Of a stretch of 64,000 bases of DNA, positions 14,490 through 64,000 are shown one piece after another. The first letter of the stretch is position 1. Each line of letters begins with the position of its first letter. This DNA comes from Halobium salinum (lineage in GTDB: Archaea; Halobacteriota; Halobacteria; Halobacteriales; Haloferacaceae). The stretch lies in contig NZ_JAODIW010000006.1 in assembly GCF_026586625.1 (NCBI RefSeq), positions 1,091,061-1,155,060 on the forward strand, read 5' to 3'. The notes beneath the pieces are model-generated. The model searched no databases. It was not told where the DNA came from and saw only the letters and a program-made list of their open reading frames with translations. Made by a program: the position numbers and the translations under genes.

Positions 14490-15383
14490 TCACTCCGTGA
14501 GTGTGAGGCAGGCGAGGGAGGCGAACAGAGCCTCTTCCGTTCGCACGACCTCGCTGCCTTGCCGCGGAATCGTATTCAGCCAGAGGTCGAACCCCGGATC
14601 GGCAACGGGTTCGACTCCGCCGGGTCCGGGGGAGTCCTTCCCCCCGGCGCCGGCGGCGGTCCCGGCAGCGGCGCCGACGTCGTCGACGTCGATGCCGAGG
14701 ATGTCCGGCAGTCCTCGACCGGGGGCGCCGAAGGCGACGGTCATCCCGTCTGCCTCGACGTCCCGGGTCAGGTCTCCCAGCCACGGGACGGTGAGCGGCT
14801 GTCCGTGTCGCGACGTCGCGATGCGGACGCCGGCGTCCCTGCGGCCGAGGACTTCCGTGAGGTCCGTCCGTTCGACGACGTACCCCGGCTGGGGCTCGTC
14901 GACGAGGCGGGCACGGACCGGTTCTCGCGAAGAGATCCTGACGGTGACGCGCTCCCCCTCCGAGGGCTCCATTCCGTCCGGAGCGTGGAGGGAGATCGGG
15001 TGTTGCAGTCCGCAAGTGACCCGAACGCGGCCTTCAGGTCCGACCTCGGTCACGATTCCCTGTGTTAACGACTCCGACCCGTCGGGGGCAGAGCCGGTCT
15101 GTGACGCGACGCGCAGGGGCGGTAGCACGCCGGCGTACTCCAGTTCGTCGCGAACGTCCCACGCCTCCTGACGGAGGTGTGGGGGCGTCGCGGCGTACCG
15201 GAGCACGGTGACGACGAAGCCTTCACCCCAGCGGCGCTCCCCCGTTCGATCAGGGAAGACGACGACCCGGTCCGCGTTGAATATCGTCGCCGCGCGGGCG
15301 ACGTAGCCGACCTTGCGAGTTGCCTCGCGTTTGTCTTCGGCCTCGCGGACGAGCGAGGACGGGATGCACACGGTGTGTGTCAT
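14490..15383 (-). CDS. SPOUT-class RNA methyltransferase (DUF171-like)
   Basis: 297 residues. The N-terminal strand TVCIPSSLVREAEDKREATR, the HLRQEAWDVRDELEYAGVLPPLR segment (two adjoining parts) and the C-terminal DLWLNTIPRQGSEVVRTEEA match the archaeal putative RNA uridine methyltransferase family of the SPOUT superfamily. The knotted C-terminal domain would bind S-adenosylmethionine. A Gly/Ala/Pro-rich loop lies at about residues 232-255. The gene commonly precedes rpl3 in archaea, suggesting rRNA modification linked to ribosome assembly; the exact target is not shown by the sequence. Confidence 0.85.
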   Translation of the reverse strand: MTHTVCIPSSLVREAEDKREATRKVGYVARAATIFNADRVVVFPDRTGERRWGEGFVVTVLRYAATPPHLRQEAWDVRDELEYAGVLPPLRVASQTGSAPDGSESLTQGIVTEVGPEGRVRVTCGLQHPISLHAPDGMEPSEGERVTVRISSREPVRARLVDEPQPGYVVERTDLTEVLGRRDAGVRIATSRHGQPLTVPWLGDLTRDVEADGMTVAFGAPGRGLPDILGIDVDDVGAAAGTAAGAGGKDSPGPGGVEPVADPGFDLWLNTIPRQGSEVVRTEEALFASLACLTLTE

Positions 15384-58514: not shown

Positions 58515-58686
58515 GCCTAGACGTCGGATAATAGGAAGTATAGTTCTCTCGGTGGGACCAAGTTCGCTCTTCTCAGTGGGGTATGTAGCTGTCTAGCGCT
58601 CAATTTGGTATGTGTGGCATGCTCGCTGTGTGTAACGGATTCAACCCACCCACTCCAGTATCTCTCTCCATTCGGCCGGCGTGAGA

Positions 58687-58889
58687 GAGTAGCTTTCTCA
58701 CGTTCTTCGTTTCAGCGGACCAAGGTGGGTCGGCCAACTGATCGTGAAGGGAGTGGGTTTCTCACGTTCTCAGGTAGAGCAACCCACCCGATTGCCGATT
58801 GAGGGAGAGTACATTTCTCACGTTCTGCATCGCAGCAGACGGCATCGTCGGTCGATTGATTGTGGAGAGGGGGAGTAGGTTTCTCACGT
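58687..58889 (+). repeat. Four direct origin repeats (ORB-like) upstream of orc1
   Basis: A 17-bp core, GAGTRnnTTTCTCACGT, occurs at 58687-58703, 58751-58767, 58807-58823 and 58873-58889, all in the same orientation. Three copies continue with TCT. Each unit is partly palindromic (GTGAGA ... TCTCAC in the first). The spacer sequences also resemble one another between copies 1 and 3. They lie just upstream of the orc1/cdc6 gene and look like initiator-binding boxes. Confidence 0.85.
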
Positions 58890-59030
58890 AACTGTAGAGA
58901 AGAGAGTCTATGCCGTGCGTGAATCGGACCTCTGTCAGACCATAATATCTCTACTCATATCGGCAACCCCAGAGTCTCCCCCATCCAGTTGGTGTGTGAC
59001 TTACAACGTCAGAAATCCACTCCCACACCC

Positions 59031-59039
59031 ATATATAAA
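59031..59039 (+). promoter_or_regulatory. TATA box of orc1
   Basis: ATATATAAA lies about 75 bases before the orc1 ATG, so the transcript would carry a leader of about 50 nt. The surrounding sequence is AT-rich. Confidence 0.6.
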
Positions 59040-59113
59040 CAAGCACAACGTGGGAAACGTTAGAAAGCCACCCTTATGTACTGTTGTGCTGAAGGCTGCT
59101 GTAGACCCCAGTA

Positions 59114-60322
59114 ATGGCCGCGCTATTCGAGGACGTCGAAGACAACATCTTCAGAAACCGGGATGTACTTACTGAAGACTACCAGCCCGAGGATATCTAC
59201 AATCGTGAAGGGGAGATAGAGAAATACGAAGAGACGTTACAACCCGTTGTAAAAGGGCAATCTCCTCGCGATATCATCACGTACGGAAATACAGGTGTCG
59301 GAAAAACCGTCGTAACCAAACACGTTCTTGGTGAGCTCGAGCGTGTGATGAAAGAGCGTGGCCAGGAAGACGAACTTCACGTCGTCCATCACAACTGCAA
59401 TAGCAACACCGTATTCAGCGTAGTGCGTGCGTTGGTGAACGAACTGCGTGGGCCGAACGAAGCGGAGTTTCCACGACGTGGTCTCTCCGTCGCAGACGCC
59501 TTCGACGCGCTATACGAGAAGATCGACGAGATGGGTGGCCGGTTCGTCTTCGCCTTCGACGAGATCGATCACGTAGCGGACTCAGATACGCTGCTGTACG
59601 AACTCACCCGTGCAAAGAGTGTGGGGAACATCACCAACGAGGAGAGTGCCATTACCGTCATCGGCATCAGCAACGACCTGAATTTCCACAATAACCTCGG
59701 AGCAAAGGTCGCAGGAGCGCTCAAAGAGCGCGAAATCGTCTTCGAGCCATACGACGCACTTGACCTCCAGAAGATCCTGAACAAGCGGGCTACAGAGGCA
59801 TTATTTGAGGATGCCTACGACGAAGGGGTCATCCAACTCTGTGCAGCTTTTGGTGCACAAGACAAGGGCGATGCACGACAGGGAATCGATATTCTTCGAG
59901 AAGCAGGCGAGATCGCAGACAGGAGTGGACATGCTGTTATCACGACAGCGGACGTTGAAGCGGCGAAAGAGCGGGTGGAGCGAGGGAGAGTTCGCAAAAA
60001 CATGCGAACCCTAACCGAGCAGGCCAAGATGGTTCTCACAGCGACCGCGTATCTGGATATCAACGATCGTACCCCCGCCCGCACAGACGATATCTTCGAC
60101 GCGTACAACACCATCACGGAGAAAATTACTGACTTCAGTCAGTTAACCACCAAGAAGAGCATCAACAATCACTTGAACGACCTGTCGATGATGGGCTTTC
60201 TCATCAAATATGAGCGTAACGAGGGCCGTGCTGGTGGGACGTACAACGAGTACAAATGTGACTACGATGCTGAGGCTGTAATCGAGACTATCTCAGACGA
60301 GTTTGGTATCGATATCGAGTAG
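59114..60322 (+). CDS. Orc1/Cdc6-type replication initiator
   Basis: 402 residues. The AAA+ domain has Walker A GNTGVGKTVV, Walker B FVFAFDEIDH, and sensor 1 (VIGISNDLNF). The C-terminal winged helix follows after about residue 310 (LTTKKSINNHLNDLSMMGFL). It binds origin repeats and loads the MCM helicase. More A+T-rich codons than in neighbouring genes suggest acquisition with its origin. Haloarchaea carry several orc1 genes; which paralogue this is cannot be told. Confidence 0.93.
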   Translation: MAALFEDVEDNIFRNRDVLTEDYQPEDIYNREGEIEKYEETLQPVVKGQSPRDIITYGNTGVGKTVVTKHVLGELERVMKERGQEDELHVVHHNCNSNTVFSVVRALVNELRGPNEAEFPRRGLSVADAFDALYEKIDEMGGRFVFAFDEIDHVADSDTLLYELTRAKSVGNITNEESAITVIGISNDLNFHNNLGAKVAGALKEREIVFEPYDALDLQKILNKRATEALFEDAYDEGVIQLCAAFGAQDKGDARQGIDILREAGEIADRSGHAVITTADVEAAKERVERGRVRKNMRTLTEQAKMVLTATAYLDINDRTPARTDDIFDAYNTITEKITDFSQLTTKKSINNHLNDLSMMGFLIKYERNEGRAGGTYNEYKCDYDAEAVIETISDEFGIDIE

Positions 60323-60376: not shown

Positions 60377-61885
60377 TCACTCCTCGAAAACTAACGTCTT
60401 CACTACGACGGGTACGGTGTCGTCATCAGAGATAGGCTCGCCAACGTCGATATAGGTGCCCTGCTCGACGGACAGTTCGTCGAGAACAACTACGGGCCGA
60501 GAGGACTCTTGCCCCCGCCGAATCGACTGGGCGAGTGCTTTCCCACAGTTCTGGGCGAGCAGGAGCAAGATCGGACCCGTGTACGGGGCGTTGTCGTACG
60601 CGGTGACGATTCCCTCGGCGAGGGCTTCGATTCGGTCGTACGTCAGTTCCCCGATATCCTCGAACGCAAGAAAGAACCACTCCTCGCTGGCCTTCTCGGC
60701 GGCTCCGGGGTCAGCATCGTCACCATAGAAAGCGATGCCCTGCTCGACGTAGTCTCGGATCTCTTCACTGAGAGCGTTGCTCTCGCCGGGTGGGCCATCC
60801 TCGTTGCCCGCCCGGCGACGCACAGTATCGGCGGCCGGAAGCAGGGGCACCGAGAGCACGGGAACGTTCCGGAGTGGGAGCACCTGTGCGTTGAGACCGA
60901 CCGTCCGCCCACTAAGGCGGGTGGTCGCAGTCCCCGTTCCAACCACCGTTGCCCGAATGTCTTCGGACGGCTCGAGTCGCGGCCAGTCGCTGAGACGGTC
61001 GTGGTCCCGGATAGCTCTCGCGAGCGCGACGCCGATGTCGCCGTAGGCGCTACGGTTGACGGTGCCGTCAGTCGGGGTCGAGACGAGCGACCCCACGCCG
61101 CCGGTAAACGCCACCACATCGAGGTCGACCCGCTCGTCGGGCAGTTCGCCGATTGCCAGTTCGGCGAGCGGGTCGGGGTACGGAGGACCAGTGAGTAAAT
61201 CCGCGAGACAGTCGGCCATCGACTCCCCGAGGCGGTCGAGTTTCTCTGCAGTGAGGTCGTCGCCGACTGCAAGCGTCATGTCGAGGTGGTCAAGTAGCGG
61301 TCGGAGCGTCTCGGCGACTCCCTGCACGGTTCCGTCGTCGACCTCGACGAGGCGGCCGCCGATTCGACAGCATCGCGTCTCCCGGACTGCGTCGCCGTCG
61401 AAGATCGCGATGTTGGTCGTGCCGCCACCGACATCGATGTTGGCGACCGTCGCGTTCTCGCGGTTGGCGTAGGCTGCGGCCCCGGATCCTCGACCGGCAA
61501 GGACTGCCTCTAAGTGCGCGCCTGCGGTCTCGACGACGAACTCGCCTAACTCAAGGGCCAGCTCGCTGACCAGCGCTGCGGCGTTAGACCGCCGTGCGGT
61601 CTCACCCGTAACGATCACCGCACCGGTGTCGATCTCTGCTCGGGAGACGCCAGCGCGTTCGAGCTCCTCCTCGACGATTGCTGCCACACCGGCGGCATCG
61701 ATCGTCTCTGCGTCAATCAGCGGCGTCTCGTGAATCTCACCGCGGAAGAGAATCTTCCGGTCGGTGATCGCCAATTTGCCGGCGCTGCCCGGACCGGTCG
61801 AGGCGACCCGAAGCCGGCTCAGGATCACCTGCGTCGTCGTGGTTCCGACGTCTATCCCGACGCTCGTCAGCAGATCCTCGCTCAT
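60377..61885 (-). CDS. eutA: Ethanolamine ammonia-lyase reactivating factor EutA
   Basis: 502 residues. The ASKHA ATPase core is visible: VGIDVGTTTTQVILSRLRVA near residue 8 (phosphate-1 loop), NIDVGGGTTNIAIFDGD (phosphate-2) and the ITDRKILFRGEIHETPLIDA segment. EutA uses ATP to exchange damaged cobalamin on ethanolamine ammonia-lyase. The gene starts 33 bases after the eutC stop and completes the three-gene unit eutB-eutC-eutA on the minus strand. Confidence 0.9.
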   Translation of the reverse strand: MSEDLLTSVGIDVGTTTTQVILSRLRVASTGPGSAGKLAITDRKILFRGEIHETPLIDAETIDAAGVAAIVEEELERAGVSRAEIDTGAVIVTGETARRSNAAALVSELALELGEFVVETAGAHLEAVLAGRGSGAAAYANRENATVANIDVGGGTTNIAIFDGDAVRETRCCRIGGRLVEVDDGTVQGVAETLRPLLDHLDMTLAVGDDLTAEKLDRLGESMADCLADLLTGPPYPDPLAELAIGELPDERVDLDVVAFTGGVGSLVSTPTDGTVNRSAYGDIGVALARAIRDHDRLSDWPRLEPSEDIRATVVGTGTATTRLSGRTVGLNAQVLPLRNVPVLSVPLLPAADTVRRRAGNEDGPPGESNALSEEIRDYVEQGIAFYGDDADPGAAEKASEEWFFLAFEDIGELTYDRIEALAEGIVTAYDNAPYTGPILLLLAQNCGKALAQSIRRGQESSRPVVVLDELSVEQGTYIDVGEPISDDDTVPVVVKTLVFEE

Positions 61886-61918
61886 TGGCTCGTTACTACC
61901 ATTTCGGGACGAAAGCGT

Positions 61919-62701
61919 TCAGCCTTTCTGGAACTCCCGGTCGCCCTCGGAGAGGTCTAGTCCGCTGGCCTCCTGTTCGACCATTGCTGCCAGCATATCG
62001 GCGATTTTCGCACCGGCCTCGACCGGCGGTAGACCGCCAGCGTGGATGTTCGAGATGACCGACTTCTTCGCCGTTGGGGCACCGCGTTTGGGGCCGTAAA
62101 CCATGTACGCACTCAGGCTCTCGGCAGTTCGCAGGCCGGGGCGCTCGCCGATTAAGTTGACACAACACTCAGCGTCCAGTTCCTCGCCGATGGCGTCCAT
62201 CACATCGACCCGCCCGAACTCGACGAAGACGGGTGTGCCCACCGACAGCCCACGTTCGTCGAGTTCGTCGATGAGCGCCGGCAACAGGTCCGGGATGTTC
62301 GCTTCGATCGCAGTCGAACTCAGCCCGTCGGTGATAATCACCTGGACGTCCGGGTGTTGCTGACACTGTGTGTGGAGGTACTCGACAGTCTCTTCGGGGA
62401 TCTCCGCACCGAGGTCCGGCCGAGCGAGGTACTGGTCTTTGTCCTCGACCAGCGTCCGAACCTTCACGAGATCGAGGTCTTCGACGAAGGCGTCGCTGAC
62501 GGTCGTCAGGACCGCGTCGCGGGCGCGGCCGTGGTCTGCTTGGAAGGTGAGCATCGTCTCCGTTCGTGGGCGCGGACCGGCCCTCCCGACACCGAGTCGG
62601 GAGGGGTTGCGCGATACGATGCGTTCGAGTCCGTTTTCGTCGGGGCTGTCTCCAGCCTCGTTACGCCCCGTGGGTGTGTCGTCAATTGGAGTCATGGTCA
62701 T
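61919..62701 (-). CDS. eutC: Ethanolamine ammonia-lyase light chain EutC
   Basis: 260 residues from an ATG that overlaps the eutB stop (ATGA). The cobalamin-binding light chain shows ERIVSRNPSRLGVGRAGPRP near the start, then LTFQADHGRARDAVLTTVSD, IITDGLSSTAIEANIPDLLP and LIGERPGLRTAESLSAYMVY. It forms the deaminase with EutB, converting ethanolamine to acetaldehyde and ammonia using adenosylcobalamin. A second ATG two codons further in is possible; the overlap supports the first one. Confidence 0.92.
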   Translation of the reverse strand: MTMTPIDDTPTGRNEAGDSPDENGLERIVSRNPSRLGVGRAGPRPRTETMLTFQADHGRARDAVLTTVSDAFVEDLDLVKVRTLVEDKDQYLARPDLGAEIPEETVEYLHTQCQQHPDVQVIITDGLSSTAIEANIPDLLPALIDELDERGLSVGTPVFVEFGRVDVMDAIGEELDAECCVNLIGERPGLRTAESLSAYMVYGPKRGAPTAKKSVISNIHAGGLPPVEAGAKIADMLAAMVEQEASGLDLSEGDREFQKG

Positions 62702-64000
62702 GTGAAGATGGTCGGATCGCCCGCACGGTCGGTCAGCGTGCCGTCGTGCCAGATGTCCATCTCTTCGAGCCACGTTCGGAATTCGGGTGCTGGACCGAGG
62801 TCGAAAATCTCCCACAGCGCTGCGGCGTCGTGGTAACTATTGGATTGGTAGTTCAGCATGACATCGTCGCCCATCGGCACTGTAATGAAATAGTTTGCAC
62901 CGGCGGCACTCAGGAGGACGGCGAGGTTCTCGATGTCGTTCTGGTCGGCGTCGATGTGGTTGGTGTAGCAGGCGTCGATTCCCATCGAGATGCCGTGGAG
63001 TTGCCCCATGAACACGTCCTCGAGCCCGGCCCGGATTACCTGACGACCGTCATACAGGTATTCGGGGCCGATGAACCCGACGACGGTGTTGACGATGAAC
63101 GGGTCGTACCGTTTCGCTAGCCCATAACAACGCGCCTCCAGCGTGAGCTGGTCGACGCCCTCGTGTGCGTCGCCCGAGAGCTCTGCGCCCTGCCCCGTCT
63201 CGAAGTACATCACGTTCGGTCCACTGGACGTACAGCGGCGCTCGGCGAGGTCGTGAGCCTCGTCGAGCAGCTCGACGTCGATGCCGAACTCGTCGTTGCC
63301 AACCTGAGTCCCGGCCAAACTTTGGAAGATTAGATCCGCCGGCGCGCCGTCCCGGATGGCGTTCATCTGCGTTGTTACATGCGCAAGACAGCAGTTCTGG
63401 GTCGGAATCCCCCACTCCTCGATAAACTCGTGTGTCCCCTCTAGAATGCGCGTCGTCGTGCCCACGTTGTCCTCGACGGGGTTGATGCCGATGACTGCGT
63501 CACCGACACCATACGACAGACCTTCTCGCGTCGAGTCGAGGATCCGGTCGACGTCGTCCGCCGGGTCGTTCGGCTGCAGTCTGAACGACAGCGTCCCCTC
63601 GGTGCCGATGGTGTTGTTACAGCGCGCAGTCACCTCCATCTTCGAGGTGACCAACACGAGATCCATGTTCGACATGATCTTCGTGACAGCCGCGATCATC
63701 TCGCTCGTCAGTCCGGAACGGATTGCGCGAACCTCCCGGTCGGTTGTCGATGAGTCGACGAGAAATTCGCGCAAATCGGCGACTGTCCAGTCTCGGATCC
63801 GCTCGTAAATCGGCTCTCGGACCGCATCCTGGATGACTCTCGTCACCTCGTCTTCGTCGTAGGGAACTACTGGATTCTCACGCAGTCTCTCGAGGGTCGT
63901 TTGGCTCAGCGCACGCTTTGCAGCGACGCGCTCGGCATCTGAGTCCGCCGCGAGGTTCGCAAGCTCGTCCCCCGTCTTTGGCTCGTTAGCCTTCGCGAGG
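62698..64000 (-). CDS. eutB: Ethanolamine ammonia-lyase heavy chain EutB, truncated at the window edge
   Basis: About 434 codons are present; the frame is open to base 64000, so the N-terminus lies outside. The visible N-terminal end reads ANEPKTGDELANLAADSDAE, as in EutB. The barrel shows IGINPVEDN, SLAGTQVGNDEFGIDVELLD and GQLHGISMGIDACYTNHIDA, conserved around the substrate and cofactor sites. EutB carries the active site of ethanolamine ammonia-lyase. Its operon context with eutC and eutA is a clear ethanolamine catabolism unit. Confidence 0.93.
   Translation of the reverse strand, partial: LAKANEPKTGDELANLAADSDAERVAAKRALSQTTLERLRENPVVPYDEDEVTRVIQDAVREPIYERIRDWTVADLREFLVDSSTTDREVRAIRSGLTSEMIAAVTKIMSNMDLVLVTSKMEVTARCNNTIGTEGTLSFRLQPNDPADDVDRILDSTREGLSYGVGDAVIGINPVEDNVGTTTRILEGTHEFIEEWGIPTQNCCLAHVTTQMNAIRDGAPADLIFQSLAGTQVGNDEFGIDVELLDEAHDLAERRCTSSGPNVMYFETGQGAELSGDAHEGVDQLTLEARCYGLAKRYDPFIVNTVVGFIGPEYLYDGRQVIRAGLEDVFMGQLHGISMGIDACYTNHIDADQNDIENLAVLLSAAGANYFITVPMGDDVMLNYQSNSYHDAAALWEIFDLGPAPEFRTWLEEMDIWHDGTLTDRAGDPTIFT

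Follow-up and report, generated by a model that had tools for sequence, protein, structure and literature searches.

A predicted orc1/cdc6-linked replication origin of Halobium salinum with a private box core and altered residues in the initiator recognition helix

Haloarchaeal origins adjacent to orc/cdc6 genes place the orc gene beside inverted boxes and an AT-rich stretch, and the sequence of the boxes is tied to the neighbouring Orc (Wu et al. 2012, PMC3528665). In that survey candidate boxes had to carry a G-string, about one third of the orc genes remained without a predicted origin, and the origin families (oriC1, oriCa, oriCb, and others) were grouped at an Orc identity of at least 80%. 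Origin-cdc6 pairing has experimental precedent in Haloarcula hispanica, where the second origin, oriC2, has several boxes and a dedicated cdc6 gene (cdc6E), and the two act specifically as a pair (PMC3936714). The solved structures of archaeal initiators on origin DNA include Aeropyrum pernix Orc1 and Sulfolobus Orc1-1/Orc1-3 (2v1u, 2qby). Residues R345 and R346 of the A. pernix protein are listed near DNA (PMC9738581).

The window analysed here, a stretch of 64,000 nucleotides of the Halobium salinum genome, lies on a contig of 1.63 Mb (C11); the genome comprises 4.46 Mb in 14 contigs. The window harbours an orc1/cdc6 initiator gene (59114-60322, + strand) encoding a protein of 402 aa. The open reading frame matched TIGR02928 with 380.8 bits against a cut-off of 181.3, as well as the Pfam families Cdc6_lid and Cdc6_C, and corresponds to a full-length Orc1/Cdc6 with AAA+ and winged-helix domains and adjoining repeats. 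In the AlphaFold model (mean pLDDT 89) the recognition helix is predicted at residues 347-359 and includes K347 and N351. The best PDB matches of the model, 2qby_A and 2v1u_A, are DNA-bound archaeal Orc1 structures with the same fold and domain order. They are the nearest solved structures, with about 33% identity over the structural alignment, and differ in the recognition-helix residues. Window residues 348 and 349 align with R345 and R346 of A. pernix (numbering derived by hand). The closest initiators were 47-49% identical among the genomes searched and 46% among plasmids. In contrast to the published families grouped at 80% or more, no relative above 49% was found in the genomes searched. 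In the tree, the window protein forms a long branch within a clade of 92 members (support 0.999). Genes for EutA, EutC, and EutB (ethanolamine ammonia-lyase) directly adjoin the orc gene at 60377-63999 on the minus strand.

A pattern search of the window revealed four exact copies of GAGTRNNTTTCTCACGT upstream of the gene, starting at 58687, 58751, 58807, and 58873, all on the plus strand, with start-to-start spacings of 64, 56, and 66 bp. These correspond to box (ORB) 1 (GAGTAGCTTTCTCACGT, 58687-58703), box 2 (GAGTGGGTTTCTCACGT, 58751-58767), box 3 (GAGTACATTTCTCACGT, 58807-58823), and box 4 (GAGTAGGTTTCTCACGT, 58873-58889). When up to two mismatches were allowed, the window yielded six sites, where 0.14 would be expected; six was not reached in any of 100 shuffles. 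The two additional sites are degenerate and inverted, on the minus strand: box 5 (GAGTGGATTTCTGACGT, 59006-59022, one mismatch) and box 6 (GGGTGGCTTTCTAACGT, 59057-59073, two mismatches). Between the direct and the inverted boxes lies an AT-rich gap of 116 bp (58890-59005), which is a likely unwinding element; its GC content is 49%, whereas segments of 116 bp average 67%, and 1.4% of them are equally low. A TATA-like element, ATATATA (59031-59037, + strand), is located between boxes 5 and 6 upstream of orc, and may serve as part of its promoter.

The earlier note had described four same-orientation copies, 56-66 bp apart, as an iteron-type origin. All four copies are exact, but the two inverted ones had been missed. 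Since boxes 5 and 6 are present, with boxes 1-4 facing them across the AT-rich gap, the array is re-read as the inverted-box layout canonical for archaeal origins, and the term iteron-type is not supported. The relation that the note had drawn between the repeats, the AT-rich stretch, and an Orc1/Cdc6 gene holds, given the 49% GC gap and the TIGR02928 match. Unlike in most relatives, inspection of the flanks of the window orc revealed no good downstream box. Compared by layout rather than by box sequence, the locus also differs in this respect from oriC2 of H. hispanica, which has a restraining ORB-rich region downstream.

Including the window, 142 distinct orc loci were assembled, a sample biased towards relatives of the window. 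Their boxes share a template composed of a left block, one base, T[T/G]TC, a core of four nucleotides, and a right block (GTTC, GCTTTC or similar). The left block is either AGAGAGTAC, or ACACCCCTC/ACACCAC, which is the G-string when read in GAAA orientation. A scan that fixed the left block and T[T/G]TC only, and left the cores outside, detected 645 sites in the 142 loci, against 36-54 in dinucleotide-preserving shuffles and 38 with reversed flanks; this excess is descriptive, since the left-block patterns were picked after viewing the same loci. At least two template boxes were found at 129 of the 142 loci. The sites showed a strong orientation bias, with 324 upstream on the plus strand, 218 downstream on the minus strand, 80 upstream on the minus strand, and 23 downstream on the plus strand. 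The template is common to chromosomal and plasmid orc loci.

The window boxes fit this template, and the window belongs to the variant with inverted boxes just upstream of the gene, as in loci L079, L080, and L082. The window agrees in left block, TTTC, right block, and orientation with orc loci from Haloferacaceae and further haloarchaea whose boxes are of the type GAGAGAGTAC-R-TTTC-GTCT/GTGT (e.g. L037, L057, L080, and L082). The Orc proteins of these loci are 42-49% identical to that of the window; they have GTCT, GTGT or GAGT cores with Q or H at residue 351, whereas the window has TCAC with N351. The proposal of a distinct origin class is not sustained, as many haloarchaeal orc loci have boxes of the same template and the layout is the canonical archaeal one. 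Judged by its sequence, the locus has the standard layout of haloarchaeal orc1/cdc6-linked origins and is not a new origin class.

In GAAA orientation the window box reads AACGTGAGAAAnnYACTC. Its end is pyrimidine-rich, without the run of G that ends haloarchaeal ORBs with a G-string; the G-string is replaced by GAGAGTA, as in many relatives. The box type could be assigned clearly at 118 loci, 67 with a left block of the GAGAGTA type and 51 of the G-string type, a split counted by hand from grouped loci in a sample skewed towards window relatives. The absence of the G-string is thus not private to the window. The contrast drawn by the earlier note with G-rich ORB elements is correct in that the G-rich block is truly absent, but this absence is common to many relatives. 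These counts suggest that a large group of orc loci can do without the G-string in their boxes, so that origin prediction demanding it would miss such loci; some of the orc genes lacking a predicted origin in PMC3528665 may be of the non-G-string kind. Boxes without G-string, or the helix rule presented below, may already be described in the literature.

Across the 142 loci, the core TCAC was seen in the four direct boxes of the window only. The cores of relatives are mainly GTCT (241) and GTGT (137), along with GAGT and CGCT. In an association test, in which each identity cluster contributed a single sequence, the columns of the protein alignment were compared one by one with the initial dinucleotide of the core. 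Column 351 had the highest rank of all, whether clustering was at 60, 70, or 80% and whether or not the window was included. Shared ancestry touches every column, and for this reason the rank of the column is reported instead of a p-value. The pairs of residue 351 and core found were Q with GT, H with GA, R with CG (once with CA), and N with TC, the last in the window alone and thus a single instance. Position 347 ranked third in the main analysis, with K in the window alone. Both positions are within the predicted recognition helix. Additional named loci combine R351 with CGCT or CAGT, and H351 with GAGT (one locus), AAGT-type cores (another), and other cores (two more). Q351 occurs with a GAGT core in L080, L174, and L295, the pHME132 locus of Haloferax mediterranei; L294 is the same locus as L080 and not independent. 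A strict code of one residue to one core is rejected, since Q351 accompanies GA as well as GT cores. The suggestion that this origin may have its own initiator specificity becomes more plausible, as the initiator is altered at the helix positions that track the box core.

The genome encodes about ten or more orc genes. Repeats visible beside the others differ from those of the window, with GAACAGCGGAC, TTTCACCGGAAAC, and GAACAAATCGATAGGGG among the examples. A motif search of all contigs revealed no second array of the window motif. Isolated near-matches are present elsewhere, two of them on another contig (C5); these lie inside the coding sequence of another orc, form no array, and were rejected as a second one. 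A search of 392 genomes from the order recovered the exact 17-bp pattern nowhere else, apart from a single lone site in another genome. The array is confined to the window locus in its own genome and in the 392 genomes; repeats of this kind away from orc genes, which would have spoken against the proposal of the earlier note, were therefore not found as an array. A viral connection was discarded: the query yielded no relative encoded on a viral contig, and the three viral matches, each to a single box, are compatible with chance. Haloarcula oriC1 and oriC2 are reported to be linked to an rRNA operon; no such operon was found in the window or within about 20 kb rightward.

GC skew, a weak proxy, was calculated for the whole 1.63-Mb contig; it has a local maximum near the locus that is nothing unusual, and it was set aside as evidence of activity. 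The global minimum of the cumulative skew is at 828 kb of the contig, with no orc nearby among those found, and could be a terminus or an unannotated origin. From 58000 to 67000, past the right end of the window, the GC content is 53-65% compared with about 69% elsewhere, lowest at the orc gene and just past the right end. A stretch of about 80 kb (1440-1520 kb of the contig) has about 50% GC in a contig of 69%, harbours two divergent orc homologues at 1499-1501 kb, and is probably an integrated element. The window of this haloarchaeal genome also possesses a match to Rfam RF03135, the L4-Archaeoglobi ribosomal protein leader, well above the cut-off (14938-15037, minus strand).

We consider it probable that the boxes and gap (58687-59073) and the gene (59114-60322) are a haloarchaeal replicator-initiator pair, self-selective among the orc genes of the genome. 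Through the winged helix and the AAA+ domain, the Orc1/Cdc6 protein would bind its own six boxes, four direct and two inverted. With direct and inverted boxes opposed across the AT-rich gap, the protein would be positioned for opening this gap and for loading MCM. The boxes combine the common ORB template with a private TCAC core, matched by K347 and N351 in the recognition helix. Given the private core and the changed helix residues, we expect self-selectivity of the pair among the ten or so orc genes of the genome. The inverted boxes flanking the TATA-like element may let the protein regulate its own gene. Beyond the observed anatomy, template, core rarity, and residue-core association of the locus, we infer binding, opening, loading, and regulation from family precedent (PMC3936714, PMC4010727, PMC5333045). 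Counting against this reading are the unexceptional skew maximum, the degeneracy of boxes 5 and 6, the lack of the downstream boxes that most relatives have, the exceptions to the residue-core pairing, and the single occurrence of N with TC. A more specific proposal, which we put forward tentatively and at somewhat less than even expectation, is that origin and initiator were naturally rewired to an orthogonal pair within the widespread non-G-string group. In this case changes at one or two helix positions, to K347 and N351, would have shifted the preference to TCAC, and other origins would be neither used nor disturbed.

The locus may instead be a dormant or weak second origin, acquired with foreign DNA, whose boxes and initiator would work in principle but would fire only on a plasmid or after loss of the main origins. 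Such dormancy is on record in Haloferax mediterranei for origins that have an orc gene and inverted boxes (PMC4595724), and the local GC dip at 58-67 kb, the unexceptional skew change, the degenerate inverted boxes, and the near orc homologues on plasmids agree with such a history. On the other hand, the gene is intact, as are the direct boxes, and all four of these retain the private core, which suggests selection. We regard dormancy as possible, leaning towards doubtful. It is compatible with the replicator-initiator reading, and our confidences in the two overlap. Regulation could also be the chief role of the boxes, as an operator for orc or nearby genes, with the protein acting as a transcription regulator rather than as an initiator. 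Sulfolobus Orc1-2 is such a regulator, with a site containing TTTC (PMC9738581), and boxes 5 and 6 flank the TATA-like element. However, four more boxes lie 225-430 bp from the gene with the AT-rich gap between the arrays, relatives retain boxes on both sides of the gene, and the template fits origin boxes instead of a single promoter element. This makes a purely regulatory role unlikely.

The direct repeats near an initiator gene, together with the plasmid homologues of this orc, would also suit an integrated element carrying an iteron origin of the plasmid type, with no relation to chromosomal ORBs. Such origins consist of short, constantly spaced direct iterons bound by a Rep protein. Here the initiator is an Orc1/Cdc6, the boxes are spaced by 56-66 bp with some of them inverted, chromosomal and plasmid orc loci have the template in common, and scans of the window showed no adjacent integrase or tRNA target; we hold this origin type to be very improbable. 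Chance repeats, to which the lone near-matches elsewhere in the genome might point, including the two inside the orc coding sequence on C5, deserve hardly any credence, as six sites stand against 0.14 expected, the genome lacks a second array, and relatives possess an equivalent array at the equivalent place.

How cells with multiple Orc1/Cdc6 proteins hold each of them to its own origin is an open question. Across many haloarchaeal pairs, the box core and one residue of the recognition helix covary. As read from the sequences compared, in the Halobium salinum locus both the box core and the matching part of the initiator have changed to a form unseen in 392 related genomes. The locus is the most divergent natural case found, and a test case for the way in which an initiator selects its own origin.
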